In this document: positions 9,612 to 21,683 of the stretch, one piece after another
Numbering within the stretch: position 1 is the stretch's first letter
Layout of the letters: every line of letters begins with the position of its first letter
Program-made: the position numbers and the translations under genes
Notes under the pieces: generated by a model
What the model saw: the letters and a program-made list of their open reading frames with translations, nothing else
Told to the model about the DNA's origin: nothing
Database searches by the model: none
Source: a bacterium
GTDB lineage: Bacteria; Zhuqueibacterota; Zhuqueibacteria; Zhuqueibacterales; Geothermadaptataceae
NCBI GenBank assembly: GCA_024275575.1
Contig: JAJRYV010000067.1
Span: 1 to 35,635, forward strand
Direction of reading: 5' to 3'
DNA length: 35,635 nucleotides

Positions 9612-11289
9612 ATGCAAAAGAAAAAGATAGTTTCCAACGTTCCAACGTTCCAACGTTCTTTTCGTTCTTCTGGTGTTTCTGATGGCCGTCTCTTCTCTTT
9701 CAGCAGGTAATATCGCAGAAATCCTCAAAACAAGAACTACCCAGACGCAGAAATGGGCGGATATTCATTGGGGCGAAGGCCATTCGGTTGACGCCGGTCA
9801 GGTTTATTACGGCCTCGACGGCTACCCTGCCGCACTCGTTTATACCGTTTTTCGCCAACCTGGCCTGGCAAAAGATGGCGCTGCCATTCTTGCCCGTGTC
9901 GAGCAGATGCGAGCTTTGCGCGACGCTGCGGAACAACGCTATATTGACAGCGAAGAAAGCGCTAAACAAGCTGCTTTTGCCGAGATAGACGCCGCATTCG
10001 CTGCCATGCGCTATGATGATGATTACGGCACTATCGTCATGAACATCGATCCGAACGATCCGGTACCGATGAAATTTTACAACGGCCTGCCGCCGCATTA
10101 TGTGGCGCTGGAAGATATGAAAGATTTTGCCCGGGACTATCTCGGTGAAGGCAAAGTGAAAGTCAAGCGCCTGCTCTTTGTCAGCTTTCTCGATATGTAC
10201 GCTGAAGTGTCGATAAACGGCCAGACTCGTATCGAAAACCTTTTGCGACCGGGTGAGCACATGCAAGATGAATCCCTGCAAAACCGCTTTGCAGCAACCC
10301 GGAGCGAAGAAGCCATCGAAGCCTGGCTGGAGAAATTCGGCGATGCTGCTGAAGCCTTGCCTCCGGATGACGAATGGTACGAGCGCTATATCTCCAGCGT
10401 GCCGGATTATAACAGCGTCGAACAACCTAAGTATTCATCGCACAGAAATGGTTGCGGACCAGCAGCGGCTGGCAATGTGTTGGGATATTGGGATGACCAC
10501 GGTTACTCCAAGTTAGTTGATGGTGGAGGCAGTTCGTACAGAGGACAACGTGGAGTTGATGGTTATTTAAATCTCGTCTGGGATGAAATAGCTGATGCAA
10601 TGGGATATAATCCAAATTATGGTACCTATATTTCAATGCTTGACAACGGTATCCGGGATGTTGCGAATGACACAAGTTACCACAATAATTATAATTTCTA
10701 TGTCAGTAACGGAATCAGGTATTCGTCAGCAGGCAATGACCGTTCAACCTACCATGGCCAGGTAAATTCAGGCAAACCCTTGGTCTATACCAGCAGCCAT
10801 CCGGATTGGAACTATGGCTAGCACAGCATGACTGGAACTGGCTATAAGGAAAATATGTATTGGCATTATCGCATTGCCCATGACAACAACTACTATACCT
10901 CGAAAAAAGTCTATTTCAATGAGATCAATTTCTCCGGCAGCACACATATCGTTAAAATCAGTCCAGGTTATGCTAAACAACAATCATCTCAGACATCCAC
11001 AGCGTTGCCTGCACACTATGCGATGAGCGCTCATCCGAATCCTTTTAATCCGGCCACTACGATTATCTATTCCATTGGCAGTTATGAAAATGTAGCGCTG
11101 AAAATATTCAACACTGGAGGCGCTCTGGTTTTCAGTAAAGACATTGGTCGACGGGAAGCAGGGCAACGGCACAGCTTCACTTGGGACGCTATAGATAACC
11201 TTGGCACCAAAGTCAGTAGTGGTGTCTATATCGTGCAAATTCGCAGTGGCCTGAAAACGATGACGCAACGGGTGACTTTACTCAAATAA
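9612..11289 (+). pseudogene. Broken secreted C39-like cysteine peptidase with T9SS sorting domain
   Basis: Starting at the ATG at 9612 (AAAAAAGGA lies just upstream) the gene reads MQKKKIVSN, then meets three tandem copies of CCAACGTT (9634-9657) that throw it out of frame. With a single copy the product would be a textbook signal peptide, MQKKKIVSNVLFVLLVFLMA, continuing into SSLSAGN and the long reading frame. That frame carries a propeptide-like region, the catalytic-Cys motif HRNGCGPAAAGN (Cys codon at 10453), then TAG at 10819-10821 just before HSMTGTGY, which holds the catalytic His. The same frame continues to a Por/T9SS C-terminal domain (HPNPFNPATTIIY ... VSSGVYIVQI). Two independent lesions make this a pseudogene unless recoding or repeat slippage restores it. 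Confidence 0.8.
9634..9657 (+). repeat. Three tandem CCAACGTT octamers inside the signal-peptide coding region
   Basis: The sequence GTTT is followed by CCAACGTT three times and then CTTTTCG. The unit is 8 bases, so each gain or loss shifts the reading frame. One or four copies keep the ATG at 9612 in frame with the peptidase; two or three do not. This is the architecture of a slippage-prone contingency repeat, although only three copies are present. Confidence 0.8.
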
Positions 11290-11314
11290 ACTTTTCATCT
11301 CACAATGGTAAACC

Positions 11315-11338
11315 CCCTATGCAAAATTTATCATAGGG
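11315..11338 (+). terminator. Hairpin after the peptidase pseudogene
   Basis: CCCTATG (11315-11321) pairs with CATAGGG (11332-11338) around a 10-base AT-rich loop, about 25 bases after the stop codon. There is no T-run, so it may be a processing or partial termination hairpin. Confidence 0.35.
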
Positions 11339-11370
11339 TTAAGAACAGGATATCAATGCGATAATACGAT

Positions 11371-11403
11371 AAACCTTCCAGGTTTTGGAAACCTGGAAGG
11401 TTT
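11371..11403. repeat. Perfect 15-base inverted repeat AAACCTTCCAGGTTT (copy 1)
   Basis: AAACCTTCCAGGTTT (11371-11385) and its exact reverse complement (11389-11403) are separated by TGG. It ends 17 bases before the ATG of the YCF48-repeat protein and 7 bases before that gene's AGGAG, so in mRNA it would form a very stable hairpin just upstream of the ribosome-binding site. A related copy lies downstream of the same gene at 13663. Confidence 0.9.
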
Positions 11404-11420
11404 TCATAACAGGAGACCTC

Positions 11421-13586
11421 ATGCCTTATTTAAATATTCTCAGACTAATCCTTATCTTCCTGACCTTTTTTTTCACTATCAGTCCTGCTCATGCGCAGTG
11501 GAAACCACTAAAGAGGGCAAAGTGGTATTCCTCCATGCAACACATTGTTTTCTCAGATAAAAACAATGGGGTCATGACGAGTTATTTCGATGTGTACCAA
11601 ACATGGGATGGAGGCCAAAACTGGACACAGCCTTTCGTACAAGATACTCTTTGGCATTTTCTATCAGGATCTTTTAGAAATACACCTGTAATTATGGATG
11701 ATCAGATTTGGTTATTGGATGATGAAGGTGTTTTTGTTCAACTTTATCAAGATGGAACCTACAAATTTTTAAATTGCAAATTCCTTTTGACGGACGAATA
11801 TGATGGTCTCACTACTTTCGATTTCGTTGGGGACAGCCTTATCTGGGTTGGAGCGCGCTCTGGCAAACTTCATCTTAGCCGTAATCTTGGTAGTAATTGG
11901 GATGAAATATTCCAATTCGATAAACGCATCAACGACTTTACGTTTTTAAACGAAAACACGGGAATTGCATTGGTTGGCGGTGGTCGCAATGCAGGAAATG
12001 TACTTGTCCCAACAACTGTTTACTCTACGCATAATGGCGGGGATTCCTGGCAGGAAAGTACGAGCCTGAACCCTGCTGGTGTAAAAATAAAAATCGTTTC
12101 TTACGGCGAACAGCATGCCTGGGTGCTCGGCACCTGGTATACGCATGATGGCGGACGTACCTGGCACAAGGCTGCCGGCATACCTGATTCGGTAGCACAA
12201 TTATCCTTGTTTTTCCTTGATGAAAACAACGGCTGGTCTTGCGGGCGTGACGGCGCCGTCATGCGTTCCCGCGACGGCGGCGCAACCTGGCGGGAAGTCA
12301 CCCGGCCAACAGCAAATGATCTCAACGAAATTTATTTTATCGACGAAAACCACGGCTGGGTTGTGGGCAAATGGGGTTTTGTTGCGGAAACCAAAGACGG
12401 CGGCGACAGTTGGCAATGGCTCATGGAGATGCCGGGTAATACTCTCTCCCAAATCCATTTTACGGATGAAAATAATGGCTATGCTATCGGTACGGATATT
12501 TTTATTCAAACAAAGGACGGTGGTGAAAACTGGGAGTTCATCCCGGATATTTCCGGGTCTGATGTGGAATTTGCAGATAAAAACAATGGTTGGCTCATCA
12601 CTTACGATGAAATCTTGGGTACGCAGAATGCCGGGAATACCTGGCAAAAGCAGGCCGAATATAAAAGCAAAAACATTGTCGATCTCAAGGTTCTGGATAA
12701 AAATACCGCCTGGTTTATGGCGCATATAGCCGATTCCGCCACGGTTTTTCGTACGACCAACGCCGGCACGGACTGGGTTAAAATGGCAGACATCCCCTGG
12801 AATCTCAACGCTGTCGAGTTCGTTTCGCCAAACATCGGCTGGGGCGTCGGCGACAAGGGTATCATTCTCAAAACCGAAGACGGCGGCCAAAGCTGGAGCA
12901 AGCAATACCAGGGCCGGCAGGATATTTTCGGCGCTTTCAACAGCGTCGATTTTGTCGATGAATCTTACGGTTGGGCTGTAAACTGGAGCGCCGAAGTCTT
13001 CTTGACCACGAATGGTGGTGCTCAATGGCAGCAGATATTTCCTAACCACCGCTTTTACACCGAACTCATGAGCGTACAGTTTTTCAATCGTAAGGAAGGC
13101 TGGGCTGCCGGTACCTACGGCGTCATTCTGCACACTATCGATGGCGGCTTAACATGGGATGATTCCCACTCTCAGGAGCAGGGCAATTGGTGGGCAGACA
13201 TTTTCTTTCTCAATGAAAACCTCGGCTGGACCTGCGGTTTGTACGGCGCGATCGATAAATATGAAAGAACTCCTGACGGGGTTTTGATGGGAGCATCCAA
13301 CGAGTTCCTTCAGCCAAAGCTATTTCCAGCACAGCCCAATCCTGTTCGCAACCAAACGCGCATCGTTTATTCTCTGCCGGCGGAAATGACTGTAACGCTA
13401 AATATCGTTGATCTGCGCGGTAGGCGGATCAGGCAGCTTTTTCAGGGTCGCCAGTTTGCCGGTGAACACCAAATAAACTGGAATGGTTGCAATCAGCACG
13501 GTAAAAAAGTGAGCAGCGGTGTTTATCTGCTTCACCTGATGACGAAAAATAATGTATTGGTGCAGAAGATGACGGTGCTGCATTGA
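11421..13586 (+). CDS. Secreted YCF48/BNR-repeat beta-propeller protein with T9SS sorting domain
   Basis: A 721-residue exported protein. The ATG at 11421 follows AGGAGACC; the longer frame starting inside the hairpin is rejected. The signal peptide is MPYLNILRLILIFLTFFFTI, with cleavage likely after AHA. The bulk is a series of roughly 40-residue repeats, each with a motif such as DGGRTWHKA, DGGATWRE, DGGDSWQW or DGGQSWSK preceded by FxDxNxGW(A/V)xG; this is the YCF48/photosystem-stability-factor-like propeller. The C-terminus (PAQPNPVRNQTRIVYSLPAE to KKVSSGVYLLHLM) is a Por/T9SS type A sorting domain, so it is probably exported through the outer membrane. Ligand or enzymatic role is unknown. 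The sorting domain resembles that of the preceding broken peptidase. Confidence 0.88.
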   Translation: MPYLNILRLILIFLTFFFTISPAHAQWKPLKRAKWYSSMQHIVFSDKNNGVMTSYFDVYQTWDGGQNWTQPFVQDTLWHFLSGSFRNTPVIMDDQIWLLDDEGVFVQLYQDGTYKFLNCKFLLTDEYDGLTTFDFVGDSLIWVGARSGKLHLSRNLGSNWDEIFQFDKRINDFTFLNENTGIALVGGGRNAGNVLVPTTVYSTHNGGDSWQESTSLNPAGVKIKIVSYGEQHAWVLGTWYTHDGGRTWHKAAGIPDSVAQLSLFFLDENNGWSCGRDGAVMRSRDGGATWREVTRPTANDLNEIYFIDENHGWVVGKWGFVAETKDGGDSWQWLMEMPGNTLSQIHFTDENNGYAIGTDIFIQTKDGGENWEFIPDISGSDVEFADKNNGWLITYDEILGTQNAGNTWQKQAEYKSKNIVDLKVLDKNTAWFMAHIADSATVFRTTNAGTDWVKMADIPWNLNAVEFVSPNIGWGVGDKGIILKTEDGGQSWSKQYQGRQDIFGAFNSVDFVDESYGWAVNWSAEVFLTTNGGAQWQQIFPNHRFYTELMSVQFFNRKEGWAAGTYGVILHTIDGGLTWDDSHSQEQGNWWADIFFLNENLGWTCGLYGAIDKYERTPDGVLMGASNEFLQPKLFPAQPNPVRNQTRIVYSLPAEMTVTLNIVDLRGRRIRQLFQGRQFAGEHQINWNGCNQHGKKVSSGVYLLHLMTKNNVLVQKMTVLH

Positions 13587-16137: not shown

Positions 16138-16319
16138 TGATGAATAAAGATCGGTGATGCGGTGATATTAATCTATTTAAAAATCTTAAATTAATTTGAA
16201 AACTGAAGTCTTGATACCGATCGCTTTAGAGAATAGAAATATCCCGTTTGGTCTGCTGTAAAGGGATTTTGAGACAAAACAATCACTGCAATGTGTTTAA
16301 TTCATCAAGGAAATTGCCT

Positions 16320-17186
16320 ATGCTCAGCCAGAGTCTGCAAGAATTATTGAACGATGAAGTTGAACTGCCGACTTTGCCGGATGTCATCATTCGCCTGTTG
16401 AGTGCAGTGGATAACCCCGAAAGTACTGCCCCCGACGTTGCACGAATTATCAGCTCGGACCCGGCGTTGATGACCAAAGTGCTCAAGCTGGTCAATTCGC
16501 CGTTTTACGGTATGCCGCGACAGATCGCCACGCTGACGCAGGCAACCGTAGTCATGGGTTTCGCGGCGATTCGCAATGTCGCGCTAACCATCGCCGTATT
16601 CAATGAATTTGGCCGCAGCGACGGCAAACCCCTGCAGTTTGAATTTACCCGGGAAAAATTCTGGGAACATTCAATCGCCGTGGCGATGATGGCTGACACT
16701 GTTGCGGCAAAGGCAAAATATAGCAAAAATGAAGATGCGTTTATCGCCGGCTTGCTGCATGATATTGGAAAAATCGTCTTCGACCGCTACCTGCACGATG
16801 ATTTTATTGCGGTGTTAACCCTTGCAGATGCCAGTGGCATGAGCATTTTCGATGCGGAAAAAAATGTTCTGGGTGAAAGCCACGCTTATGTCGGTAGTTG
16901 GCTGGCAGACAGATGGCGCCTGCCGGCACATCTCGTCGATGCCATGCGCCACCACCATGCACCGCAGGACAGTGAGGTTGATTGGCCGCTGGTGGCGATC
17001 ATTCATATTGCCGACAAATTGGTGCGCCAGGAAGGTTACGGACATCCCGGTGATAACCTGACGCCTGAGATCGATCAGATGACAGGGAATAAACTGGGCC
17101 TTGAAGCGAAAGATTATTCCGAGATTACACAGCTCGTCAAGTTGAATTTCGATGCCGCCATGGCTTTCTTTCAGTCGGTTCTTTGA
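16320..17186 (+). CDS. HDOD-domain signalling protein (first copy)
   Basis: A 288-residue cytoplasmic protein. The ATG at 16320 follows CAAGGAAATT; a longer frame from 16248 is less likely. The HDOD domain covers most of the protein: LQELLNDEVELPTLPDVIIR, SSDPALMTKVLKLVNSPFYG, then LLHDIGKIVFDRYL, a region related to HD phosphodiesterases. Here the HD pair is kept (LLHDIGK), but HDOD proteins usually act as protein-interaction or signalling modules rather than proven enzymes. They often sit with chemotaxis, type IV pilus or c-di-GMP genes. It lies 39 bases before a PilB/GspE ATPase, which supports shared function. Confidence 0.88.
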   Translation: MLSQSLQELLNDEVELPTLPDVIIRLLSAVDNPESTAPDVARIISSDPALMTKVLKLVNSPFYGMPRQIATLTQATVVMGFAAIRNVALTIAVFNEFGRSDGKPLQFEFTREKFWEHSIAVAMMADTVAAKAKYSKNEDAFIAGLLHDIGKIVFDRYLHDDFIAVLTLADASGMSIFDAEKNVLGESHAYVGSWLADRWRLPAHLVDAMRHHHAPQDSEVDWPLVAIIHIADKLVRQEGYGHPGDNLTPEIDQMTGNKLGLEAKDYSEITQLVKLNFDAAMAFFQSVL

Positions 17187-17225: not shown

Positions 17226-18911
17226 ATGACAAACCGTTATCGTAAATTAGGCGAAATTCTCAAGAATAATGGCTTGATAAGCGACCAGAACATCGATGCG
17301 GCACTTGATATTCAACGTCGAACCGGTGAGCAATTTGGCCGCATCATGATCAAACAGGGCTGGATTACAGAAACCGCATTACTGGAGGCGCTGAGTGAAA
17401 AATTCGACCTGCCTCTGGTAAAAATCGACGCTTACAGCATCGATCCGGCAGTCGTTAAAATTGTGCCGATGGAAATTGCACAGCGCTATAAAGTCATACC
17501 GCTTTTTCTCGTCGACGATCTTCTGACCCTGGCCATGTCTGATCCGCTCGATCTCAAAGCGCTGGACGCAGTGCGCTATCACACGAAATTGAACGTGCAG
17601 GAAGTCCTCGCCGCTGAATGCGATATCGAAACAGCCATCAAGAAATATTACAGCATGGTTGCTTTTCTCGATCGCATGGTAACCAGCTTTAAAGAGGATG
17701 CCCTGGTTGAGCTCAAGGATGAGGAAGAAGACAAAGAAACCAATCTCGATGCCACGGACGAGGCCTCGATTATCAACTTTGTTAACGTCGTCATTTCGCA
17801 GGCGATCCGCGAAAAGGCGAGTGATATTCATATGGAAATGGATGAGAAGGAATTTCGCATCCGCTATCGTGTGGATGGTGTGCTACACCTGTTTTCGACA
17901 CCGCCGAAAAAAATCGCCCCGATGGTGATTTCACGCATTAAAGTGCTGGCCGAGCTGGATGTCTCGGAAAAACGCGTACCCCAGGATGGTCGCTTCCGTG
18001 TAAAGATTTTGCAGGAGGAAATGGACCTCCGGGTATCGATTCTGCCGACTGTCCATGGCGAAAAAGCTGTTTTGCGAATTCTCGACCGCCGTAATGCCCG
18101 GCTTAAATTGGCAGACCTGGGATTTCAGCCACGCATGCTGCAACTATGGGATCAGGCAATTCGTAAACCCGAAGGCATTATTCTCATCACCGGACCGACC
18201 GGTAGCGGCAAAACGACAACCCTTTATTCGGTGCTTAATACCATCAATTCGATTCATAAAAATATTGTGACGATTGAAAATCCGGTAGAATATAAGTTTG
18301 AGTTGATCAATCAGGTGCAGGTCAATTTAAAGGCCGGATTAACTTTTGCCGGCGCACTGCGTTCGATTTTACGTCAGGACCCGGATATCATTATGATCGG
18401 TGAAATCCGCGATTCGGAGACGGCCGATATTGCCATCCGCAGCGCCATGACCGGCCATCTCGTGCTGTCAACTTTGCACACCAATGATGCCGTCGGCGGC
18501 ATCTTCCGGCTCATGGATATGAATGTCGAGCCGTTTTTGCTCACCTCATCGGTCATCGGCATTTTGGCGCAGCGGCTGGTGAGAAAAGTTTGCCCGCACT
18601 GCCAGCAGCACGACAAAGAAGGCTGGCGACACTTGCAGGAAAAAAATTATAAAATCAATAAGGATACGGTGAAATTATACCGCGGCAGCGGCTGTCGGGA
18701 ATGCAAAAAAACCGGTTATATTGGCCGAACAGGTATCCATGAGCTATTGCTTTTTGATGAAACAATCCGCCGCATGGTGCTGGATCGGGCGCAGGAAGAT
18801 GAGATTCGCAACTATGCCGTGCAAAAAGGCATGGCATTATTACGCCATGATGGTTTGAGAAAAGCCTTTAACGGTACGACAACAATAGAAGAGGTATTGC
18901 GGGTGACATGA
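17226..18911 (+). CDS. PilB/GspE-family secretion or pilus-assembly ATPase
   Basis: A 561-residue cytoplasmic hexameric ATPase that powers type IV pilus extension or type II secretion. The N-terminus carries an MshEN-like domain (YRKLGEILKNNGLISDQNID, LSEKFDLPLVKIDAYSID), which in relatives can bind c-di-GMP. The core has Walker A GPTGSGKT (323-330), the Asp box region RQDPDIIMIGEIRD, and TGHLVLSTLHTNDA. A zinc tetracysteine, CPHC (456, 459) and CREC (490, 493), sits near the end. No pilin, PilC/GspF or secretin gene is nearby, so pilus and secretion roles cannot be separated. The neighbouring HDOD, kinase and TackOD1 genes suggest regulated motor activity. Confidence 0.9.
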   Translation: MTNRYRKLGEILKNNGLISDQNIDAALDIQRRTGEQFGRIMIKQGWITETALLEALSEKFDLPLVKIDAYSIDPAVVKIVPMEIAQRYKVIPLFLVDDLLTLAMSDPLDLKALDAVRYHTKLNVQEVLAAECDIETAIKKYYSMVAFLDRMVTSFKEDALVELKDEEEDKETNLDATDEASIINFVNVVISQAIREKASDIHMEMDEKEFRIRYRVDGVLHLFSTPPKKIAPMVISRIKVLAELDVSEKRVPQDGRFRVKILQEEMDLRVSILPTVHGEKAVLRILDRRNARLKLADLGFQPRMLQLWDQAIRKPEGIILITGPTGSGKTTTLYSVLNTINSIHKNIVTIENPVEYKFELINQVQVNLKAGLTFAGALRSILRQDPDIIMIGEIRDSETADIAIRSAMTGHLVLSTLHTNDAVGGIFRLMDMNVEPFLLTSSVIGILAQRLVRKVCPHCQQHDKEGWRHLQEKNYKINKDTVKLYRGSGCRECKKTGYIGRTGIHELLLFDETIRRMVLDRAQEDEIRNYAVQKGMALLRHDGLRKAFNGTTTIEEVLRVT

Positions 18912-19043
18912 ATCTACGGTTTTGGCTGAGCCTGGTGAAACTGCTATTGTGTATAATTCCCGGGAAAGTTTAATGAAAAACTCCTGAGACGATGATTGTT
19001 TCATCTCTCTGGCAGGGCTTTTTCAGCAAGTAAAAGTGAGATT

Positions 19044-20153
19044 ATGAAAGAAAGTGAAAAGCAGGCAGAACTGCAAATAATGCTCAATGAGCTCAATCAG
19101 TTGCATGCGAAAAGCATCGAATTGCTGCAAAAGACAAATGAACCGGAGAAAATGCTGGATTCTCTTTTGGCAGAGTTCGAACGGCGTCTGACGGATTTAT
19201 CCGGAATCAATCTCAATTCCAAACCTGAAAGTATCAATGATACCCTGGCGCGGGAAAAATTAAAAGCACTGTTGATGTATTCACAGCTTGCCGAAATATT
19301 GCGCGGCAATGCTGAATTACAGGTGCAACTGAAATCGCACAACAAAGATCTCGATGAATTAAATCATAGAATGAGCGAAAACAACGATGAATTGCGCAGG
19401 CTTAATGAATACTATTTGAACATGCTCGGATTTGTCGCACACGAACTGCGTAGCCCGCTGGTTTCGATTCTCGGTTTTTCGGAATTGCTCGAAGAAGGTT
19501 ACCTCGGCAAGCTCAATGTGGAGCAACTCAACGGTGTGCAGGTCATCACCCGCGTATCGCGAAATCTCATCGATATGATAAAAAACTATCTCGATCTGTC
19601 GAAAATTGAAAATGGAGAACTGCTCATCCACTGGCAGGAGCTGGATATCGAAAAAGACTTGCTGCAGCCGGTTCTATCGGAACTCAGCGGTCAGCTCAGC
19701 CTGAAAGATATGAAAATAGTGCGGAAAGGGCCGGCGCTCAGCAAGAAAATATGCATTATCGGCGATCGCGATTTGCTGAAAATTGTGTTTAACAATGTTT
19801 TCAGCAATGCGGTTAAATACGGCAAACCACATTCGACTATTCACTATCAAACAGAAGAGACGGAGACCGGCTACTTCTTTTCGATCAAAAACGAGGGCCG
19901 CGGTATTGCCAAAGAACGCATCGAATCGATTTTTGATAAATTTTCTCAGGGTGTCAACAAAGACCCCAATTTGCCCCGGGGCACCGGGCTTGGACTGTTC
20001 AATACAAAATGTATAATCAAAGCACACGAGGGTGACATTTGGGCGCAATCGGAAGAAAAAAAATGGTTTAAAATAAATTTTCACCTGCCGCGAAAACCAC
20101 GCCAACCAAGGAATAAAGTCGATATGACGTCAACCGCAAGTGTTCTTTCATAG
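19044..20153 (+). CDS. Soluble sensor histidine kinase
   Basis: A 369-residue kinase. The ATG at 19044 gives a soluble start. The first ~130 residues are charged and helical (coiled-coil-like: LNELNQLHAKSIELLQKT), with no membrane helix and no PAS or GAF that I can recognise. The phosphoacceptor His133 is in FVAHELRSPLVSILGF; the ATP-binding N box is NNVFSNAVKYG; the G boxes are NEGRGI and GTGLGL. It presumably senses a cytoplasmic partner through its coiled coil. The next gene, 45 bases on, encodes a receiver that lacks the usual phosphoacceptor, so the true phosphotransfer target is uncertain. Confidence 0.9.
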   Translation: MKESEKQAELQIMLNELNQLHAKSIELLQKTNEPEKMLDSLLAEFERRLTDLSGINLNSKPESINDTLAREKLKALLMYSQLAEILRGNAELQVQLKSHNKDLDELNHRMSENNDELRRLNEYYLNMLGFVAHELRSPLVSILGFSELLEEGYLGKLNVEQLNGVQVITRVSRNLIDMIKNYLDLSKIENGELLIHWQELDIEKDLLQPVLSELSGQLSLKDMKIVRKGPALSKKICIIGDRDLLKIVFNNVFSNAVKYGKPHSTIHYQTEETETGYFFSIKNEGRGIAKERIESIFDKFSQGVNKDPNLPRGTGLGLFNTKCIIKAHEGDIWAQSEEKKWFKINFHLPRKPRQPRNKVDMTSTASVLS

Positions 20154-20198: not shown

Positions 20199-21683
20199 AT
20201 GGCACAAAAAAACATCCTGCTCATCGATGATGATACGATGTTGCTCACACGTACGCAAAATTTGCTTGAAAAACGAGATTTTACCGTCGCTTTGGCCCGC
20301 AATACCCAAGAAGGCTTGATTGCGCTCGAACGCAGCATCCCTGATTTGATCATTCTCTCATCGCTATTGCCTGATGCCGATGCCTATACTTTTCTCGAAC
20401 AGGTGAAAGAAAACCCTGACTGGCGTTTTTTACCGGTCATCGTACTGACGGGGAAAAATGAACATGAAGATAATCGCCTGATGGGCTTGCGGCTCGGTGT
20501 GATGGATTATTTATCCAAACCGTTCGATGAAGACGAGCTGCTCAAACATGTGGAAAATATTCTGGCGTTTTATGAAGTGCGCGTACAGGCGAACCGTGAA
20601 ACCGAGGTTCCGAGTCAGGAACGTCTGCTCAATTTCATGAATGAGCGCGGCATCCGCACCCTGATTCCCGGCGTGCACCGCCTGGCAAAATTGGGTTATG
20701 AATATCCGGAGGCTGCTCAAATTCTACGGCCGGAAGAACTGGGCGGGGAAATCTATATTCTCGAAAGCATGGCCAAAACCGGCTTGCTCGAGCGCGTTTT
20801 CCACGACGCTATCCACATGTGCCCGGATTGCGGTCACCATGATTTAAACTTTCGCGAGGTCTGCCCGCAATGCAATGGCGCCGATATTGACGCGATGAAA
20901 ATGCTGACCTGCGATCGCTGTTCACACCGCAGCCTTGAATATAAATTCCGCACCGGGAAAGGGTTGCAGTGCCCGCAATGCTTGGAAATTTTGCAGTGGA
21001 AGAATCTCGATTATGATGAAAGCACCTCGGCCATGCGAGTGTGCAACCAGTGCAAAGGTCACTTTACCGAAGCCATCGTCAACTGCCGCTGCATGAATTG
21101 TAATAAATTGTTCGATCTGGCAACTGCCCGCGTACGAAAAATCTATTCCTATAAATTGATTCAGGATACATTTGAGAAAAATCCACTACCCGAGCCAAAG
21201 CTCAAAATGAAATTTGCACAGGATGATATCGAGGCGTTGATCAGATCACAAAAACTGAACGTCGCCGATAAAGAAAATTTCCACAAGGAAACAGAAAAAC
21301 ACATCGAAGACGCCGGTTATTGCAATGGCCATGTCACTATTCTCGCCCTGCATTTTAAAAAAAGCGATAACGACAACGATCTCGATTATGAGGCTTACAT
21401 GTCATTATTCGAAAAAATAATCGTTACGCTGCGGGAAATCCTGCGTCAGCGTGACCTTATCTGCATCGCTGCTGCCGATGAATTGCACATCGTTTTACCG
21501 GATACGCCCTATCGTATGGCGCGGGTCATCGCCAACCGTCTGCTAAGCTCGCTGACGCGGGTGGAATACGATCTCGATATTCACCTCAACATGGCCGGTT
21601 ACCCTGATGACGGCGTTACTGTCGTCGAACTGCTGGAAATTCTTCGCCTCGGCATCGTCAGCGCGCACCCGTTTTCAAGCTGA
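20199..21683 (+). CDS. Pseudo-receiver / TackOD1-like zinc domain / degenerate GGDEF protein
   Basis: A 494-residue cytoplasmic protein. The first ~125 residues are a CheY-like receiver with acidic Asp10-Asp12, Thr84 and Lys107, but the phosphoacceptor position holds Ser54 (DLIILSS, where active receivers have an Asp). A metal-binding stretch follows (Cys208 to Cys301) with three CxxC-type pairs and an LDYD plus C..C layout that resembles TackOD1. The C-terminus (about 370-494) resembles a diguanylate cyclase fold with AADEL (residues 425-429) in place of GGDEF and the final MAGYPDDGVTVVELLEIL. It lacks the motif for c-di-GMP synthesis. It is probably a signalling adaptor rather than a classical regulator. 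Confidence 0.75.
   Translation: MAQKNILLIDDDTMLLTRTQNLLEKRDFTVALARNTQEGLIALERSIPDLIILSSLLPDADAYTFLEQVKENPDWRFLPVIVLTGKNEHEDNRLMGLRLGVMDYLSKPFDEDELLKHVENILAFYEVRVQANRETEVPSQERLLNFMNERGIRTLIPGVHRLAKLGYEYPEAAQILRPEELGGEIYILESMAKTGLLERVFHDAIHMCPDCGHHDLNFREVCPQCNGADIDAMKMLTCDRCSHRSLEYKFRTGKGLQCPQCLEILQWKNLDYDESTSAMRVCNQCKGHFTEAIVNCRCMNCNKLFDLATARVRKIYSYKLIQDTFEKNPLPEPKLKMKFAQDDIEALIRSQKLNVADKENFHKETEKHIEDAGYCNGHVTILALHFKKSDNDNDLDYEAYMSLFEKIIVTLREILRQRDLICIAAADELHIVLPDTPYRMARVIANRLLSSLTRVEYDLDIHLNMAGYPDDGVTVVELLEILRLGIVSAHPFSS

Follow-up and report, generated by a model that had tools for sequence, protein, structure and literature searches.

A TackOD1 protein with an aspartate-less receiver and a degenerate GGDEF domain as a candidate c-di-GMP adaptor beside a type IV pilus ATPase gene

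What can a receiver domain do for an adjacent histidine kinase when its phosphoacceptor aspartate is missing, and what remains for a GGDEF domain in the same protein when its catalytic signature is missing too? The question is raised by a gene in a DNA stretch of 35,635 nucleotides from a Calditrichota bacterium (contig JAJRYV010000067.1, positions 1 to 35,635 of the forward strand; hereafter the window), whose product joins such a receiver, a TackOD1 zinc-ribbon domain and a degenerate GGDEF domain (Table 1). A preliminary description made from the letters alone had proposed this three-part layout, and the reading frame, the residue numbers and the layout all held up on re-examination. Structure prediction from an alignment of two sequences gave usable confidence in the first part of the receiver only, the AlphaFold models of the full-length protein and the C-terminal domain (mean pLDDT 40 and 37, respectively) being unusable. 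Both the phosphoacceptor and the GGDEF catalytic residues have, to judge from the sequence, almost certainly been lost.

Table 1. Coordinates of the regulator gene, its parts and the genes upstream of it (positions in the window)
Feature	Position	Strand	Basis
HDOD protein, first of conserved four-gene run	16248..17186	+	HDOD E 1.2e-62, synteny
PilB-type assembly ATPase with MshEN domain	17226..18911	+	T2SSE E 9.5e-140, MshEN E 3e-21
Soluble histidine kinase, partner gene	19044..20153	+	HisKA E 1.9e-12, HATPase_c E 4.5e-20
REC(pseudo)-TackOD1-degenerate GGDEF protein	20199..21683	+	ATG start, 494 aa
Aspartate-less receiver domain, residues 6-118	20214..20552	+	Pfam PF00072 (Response_reg) E 1.5e-20
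Ser54 codon TCA, phosphoacceptor position	20358..20360	+	numbering check, PleD alignment
TackOD1 zinc-ribbon domain, residues 137-320	20607..21158	+	Pfam PF18551 E 3.3e-37
Degenerate GGDEF domain, approx. residues 341-494	21219..21680	+	Pfam and family profile
Retained I-site RxxD, R416-Q-R-D419	21444..21455	+	equals PleD R359/D362, 5 residues before AADEL
AADEL replacing GGDEF, residues 425-429	21471..21485	+	
R447, counterpart of PleD Arg390 I-site residue	21537..21539	+	PleD alignment, family conservation

The receiver is recognized by its Pfam profile. Ser54 occupies the phosphoacceptor position where Asp is expected, and a numbering check upheld the earlier reading that D10-D12, T84 and K107 are kept around this serine; Y104 is likewise intact, and with T84 it preserves the pair of the known Y-T switch. 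A sequencing error as the source of Ser54 was rejected because the orthologue in a congeneric genome (G001, record QQUE01000012.1; 76% identical) also has Ser, specified by TCC rather than TCA, each codon being two base changes away from an Asp codon. With Ser in both genus members, the earlier claim that the protein is not phosphorylated at residue 54 is well supported. Between the congeners the receiver is 81% identical with a dN of 0.13, and the degenerate GGDEF domain 65% identical (identity and dN were used in place of dN/dS per domain, dS being saturated). This implies purifying selection after the loss of Asp, so the receiver retains a job despite the loss of phosphorylation. Across orthologues the acceptor residue is Asp, Glu or Ser; in a tree that left out most receiver columns Ser arises as one event inside a clade of Asp-bearing relatives, and Glu needs at least two changes. 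By the terminology of a review from 2025 the receiver is aspartate-less; that review counts 20 characterised bacterial examples, only two of them not orphans, and calls their activation a mystery (PMC12632262). The window protein thus offers an aspartate-less receiver with a gene partner, unlike nearly all characterised ones.

That partner is the soluble histidine kinase encoded directly upstream. Its listed open reading frame begins at a TTG at 18996, and the ATG at 19044 fits the alignment with the orthologue better. Of 17 REC-TackOD1 loci examined, 14 have a kinase of this kind directly ahead of the regulator, the exceptions being L072, L082 and L093. Regardless of whether the partner carries Asp, Glu or Ser, all 14 kinases retain the phosphoacceptor His together with the N and G2 boxes. 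The preliminary description had treated the protein as a single oddity; with an acceptor that varies across orthologues beside an intact kinase, it is not one. The kinase would probably still dock on the pseudo-receiver, with its phosphoryl target elsewhere. Separate small receiver-like genes, matched by the window receiver, occur nearby at L067, L083, L089, L091 and L092, and the window gene run has none. All 14 kinases have Asn at the G1-box Asp position of the ATP site, and their N-terminal region of roughly 120 residues is conserved in orthologues and gives no Pfam match above the cut-off.

The middle domain scores 128.3 bits against TackOD1 (curated cut-off 32) and contains CxxC motifs and 13 cysteines, all between residues 208 and 301, where possible metal ligands had been noted. 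These would form three sets of four (208/211/222/225, 238/241/258/261 and 282/285/298/301), with C296 as an extra. The published HxxC motif of TackOD1 is a CxxC at residues 238-241 (20910-20921) in both genus members, which brings the cysteines to 13. The authors who defined TackOD1 regarded its functions as still obscure, and a full-text search across 5.4 million papers found the name in their paper only.

The Pfam GGDEF match of the C-terminal domain (residues 359-456; E 0.01, 16 bits) falls under the cut-off of 23.8, and some relatives score better (L072, E 9e-12; the Plesiomonas protein, E 1.4e-10). A family C-terminal profile compared by hhalign with the canonical GGDEF domains of the window's own genome nevertheless gave a probability of 99 (E 1.7e-18), and the degenerate GGDEF domain of the preliminary description is therefore real. 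AADEL stands at residues 425-429, as had been read, and the equivalents of PleD D327, N335, D344 and R366 are not conserved, so that the hallmarks of a diguanylate cyclase are missing. In a conservation count by PleD numbering over 163 columns and 36 family members from several phyla, the residues at the metal, guanine and GGDEF positions are scattered. The earlier statement that the protein makes no c-di-GMP is accordingly well founded, the catalytic residues being lost here and essentially family-wide. The two most conserved of the 163 columns are those of the I-site RxxD (Asp in 34 of 36, Arg in 32), and the column of PleD Arg390 ranks 8th, with R in 28 and K in four members. The window domain combines RxxD, the five-residue spacing to AADEL and the second arginine, as in degenerate-GGDEF receptors of the PelD, PopA, CdgA and BcsE kind.

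RxxD is present in every one of the 35 catalytic GGDEF domains that were tested from the class. A gain of this motif in the family was rejected on that count, and the I-site is therefore ancestral and was retained while neighbouring positions decayed. The motif is lost in four of the 36 members, all of them receiver-bearing (L069, L071, L089 and L092), and in alphaproteobacterial relatives, and is retained in the gammaproteobacterial ones; thus the module can persist without an I-site. At those four loci the receiver acceptor is Glu, yet the gene pair with an intact kinase is kept. A dead GGDEF domain with an I-site is an accepted sign of a c-di-GMP receptor, as in CdgA (PMC3271064), PelD and PopA (PMC10333796) and BcsE (PMC7439463); CdgA, with GVNEF and RxxD, binds c-di-GMP with a Kd of about 2 uM (PMC3271064). 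We consider it probable that the window protein likewise binds c-di-GMP at its I-site, and the genome encodes seven full-length GGDEF domains to supply the ligand. The earlier suggestion that the protein senses or scaffolds was right in spirit and unspecific; the I-site turns it into a specific prediction of c-di-GMP sensing.

The preliminary description made no use of the gene neighbourhood, which suggests a target. Genes for the HDOD protein, PilB, the kinase and the regulator follow one another in the same orientation, separated by about 40 to 130 bases. As far as contig ends allow, this run is seen in five genomes of the window's family, its own and that of the congener included, with one more kinase and receiver separating HDOD from PilB at L067. 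The window PilB scores 60.2 bits against the NCBIfam c-di-GMP_motif model (cut-off 38), and MshEN is well established as a domain that acts as a c-di-GMP receptor (PMC5013675). In other families the kinase-regulator pair is accompanied by a secretin (L068), PilM/PilN and a secretin (L090), PilN/PilM-like genes (L089) or a weak PilN match (L092). Four of the seven Calditrichota families with REC-TackOD1 proteins (f1, f4, f15 and f16) thus show a conserved association with pilus genes, that of f4 resting on one of its three genomes; no pilus gene was recognised among the partly scanned neighbours at L069, L070, L071, L082 and L083. The main pilus genes of the window's genome are located elsewhere, with pilins, PilC, another PilB and a prepilin peptidase on C19 and with PilM, a secretin and a T2SSE ATPase interpreted as PilT on C105, so that the window PilB is a second, separately regulated PilB. 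Beside the other PilB, the main pilus operon also encodes a 517-aa protein (L126 5453-7003) with MshEN and no ATPase domain match. In the congener a 157-aa reading frame without a Pfam match lies between HDOD and PilB (L064 12461-12931) and is absent from the window, and in G046 a TGA stop separates the TackOD1 part of the regulator orthologue from its degenerate GGDEF part (L070 5938-7395), which may reflect a pseudogene, an assembly error or readthrough.

Based on these observations we propose that the protein is a non-enzymatic adaptor that would read c-di-GMP and adjust the assembly ATPase of the type IV pilus that is the product of the second gene upstream, a reading to which we give a probability of roughly 55%; that PilB itself is the target we put at about even odds. 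c-di-GMP would bind the I-site of the degenerate GGDEF domain, and the zinc module and pseudo-receiver could serve as docking surfaces for the MshEN-bearing PilB and the intact kinase. Ligand binding would then alter the PilB/kinase complex and with it pilus extension or a linked surface behaviour. The same arrangement might instead be a kinase-controlled scaffold that does without c-di-GMP, in which the receiver docks the kinase, the TackOD1 zinc ribbons do the work and RxxD is a structural remnant. The adjacency of kinase and regulator genes that outlives both receiver Glu and RxxD loss at the four loci named above is in keeping with this, as are the alphaproteobacterial and haloarchaeal TackOD1 proteins that manage without RxxD, the haloarchaeal ones having no degenerate GGDEF domain at all. 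We nonetheless regard it as unlikely, as a mere remnant pair would not be expected to top the conservation ranking of a domain whose other signature residues have decayed, nor would it explain why the Arg390 equivalent, distant in sequence and part of the same pocket, is kept together with it. An ordinary response regulator that takes phosphate on a different acidic residue, or a decaying protein, seems to us highly improbable: the intact D10-D12, T84, K107 and Y104 and the kinase's His, N box and G2 box would suit residual phosphorylation, but Ser in both genus members within an 81% conserved domain, and the replacement of Asp by Glu at least twice and separately, argue against it, as the low dN does against decay.

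The remaining alternative comes from the wider family, and holds that the protein regulates exopolysaccharide secretion by serving a glycosyltransferase system elsewhere in the genome, its linkage to PilB being incidental. A second TackOD1 clade, also present in the window's genome (C39, L073), heads operons with GT2, TolC-like and HlyD genes; it has no recognisable receiver, and its N-terminal domain matched the receiver with an hhalign probability of 31 or 3, depending on the row set. Outside Calditrichota most TackOD1 genes sit ahead of one for GT2, with HlyD and TolC-like genes frequently alongside, and examples of the pairing come from other phyla as well as from Proteobacteria (for instance Plesiomonas shigelloides, Phyllobacterium and Roseibium); the pilus link is therefore not universal. 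These facts, and the GT2-linked paralogue in the same genome, lend the idea some substance. Against it, a paralogue with its own GT2 operon would already cover that job, and the window gene stands in a PilB run conserved in its family, and its distant orthologues lie with PilM/PilN and secretin genes, so that we hold it to be rather improbable. The two contexts are linked, as L072, a REC-TackOD1-GGDEF protein in a GT2 operon, groups with the paralogous clade in the tree (100/99). Members of that clade also lie opposite a PilB-like ATPase in six of nine genomes fetched, with MshEN shown for L075.

TackOD1 genes with GT2 and TolC-like and/or HlyD genes were located at L073 8363-9784, L075 8459-9931, L096 7815-9167, L158 5755-7110, L166 4911-6164 and L167 3467-4861, and the TackOD1-GT2 operon is widespread in Calditrichota, other phyla and Proteobacteria. 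The operon has the look of an exopolysaccharide secretion system, and many examples include a predicted c-di-GMP subunit of their own. The TackOD1 relatives of Plesiomonas and Aeromonas are annotated as diguanylate cyclases although their catalytic GGDEF motif is lost.

Every element of the proposed adaptor has a precedent. FrzS is not known to have a GGDEF or zinc domain. It shares a receiver without Asp and acts in type IV pilus motility (PMC1974792). BcsE has a phosphorylation-incompetent receiver and a catalytically dead GGDEF domain with RxxD and serves a surface machine, but it has its own N-terminal domain and no TackOD1 in between, and its machine is cellulose synthase rather than a pilus ATPase (PMC7439463). 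PopA (REC-REC-dGGDEF) binds c-di-GMP through the RxxD of its dead GGDEF domain, and differs in having two receivers and no zinc domain and in acting in CtrA proteolysis; PelD, also a c-di-GMP receptor through a dead GGDEF domain with RxxD, is by contrast a membrane protein with a GAF domain that serves Pel polysaccharide (PMC10333796). Bdellovibrio CdgA shares a dead GGDEF domain with RxxD five residues upstream, binds c-di-GMP and belongs to a polar hub tied to pilus-dependent invasion (PMC3271064, PMC3983030); it has GVNEF where the window protein has AADEL, and no TackOD1 module is reported for it. The Thaumarchaeota TackOD1 proteins (arCOG06883) share the zinc domain, sometimes behind a receiver, and have been reported mostly from type IV pilus loci, whereas their published architectures (TackOD1, REC-TackOD1 and REC-wHTH-TackOD1) are without GGDEF (PMC4858521, PMC5847659). 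The literature searched contained no example of the full combination, an aspartate-less receiver joined to TackOD1 and an I-site GGDEF domain and paired by its genes with an MshEN PilB and an intact kinase.

As a tentative generalization, which we hold somewhat less firmly than the proposal for the window protein, TackOD1 may provide the zinc module for protein docking in a wide family of second-messenger adaptors, where the degenerate GGDEF domain would sense c-di-GMP and a working, phosphomimetic or dead receiver would add kinase input, the machines controlled being type IV pili and GT2-HlyD-TolC exopolysaccharide secretors. The window protein would be a form in which aspartyl phosphorylation plays no part in the action of an intact kinase on the product of its partner gene. 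For TackOD1, the I-site that has been kept, together with the two gene contexts, pilus and exopolysaccharide, yields a testable prediction with named residues and gives the domain a plausible job at cell-surface machines. An Rfam scan of the window returned no matches, hence no c-di-GMP riboswitch at the threshold used, and a promoter and terminator scan gave a signal near the shuffle background. Two proteins encoded elsewhere in the window, at 10828-13583, have FlgD-Ig / Por_Secre_tail C-terminal domains, which suggests type IX-like secretion signals.
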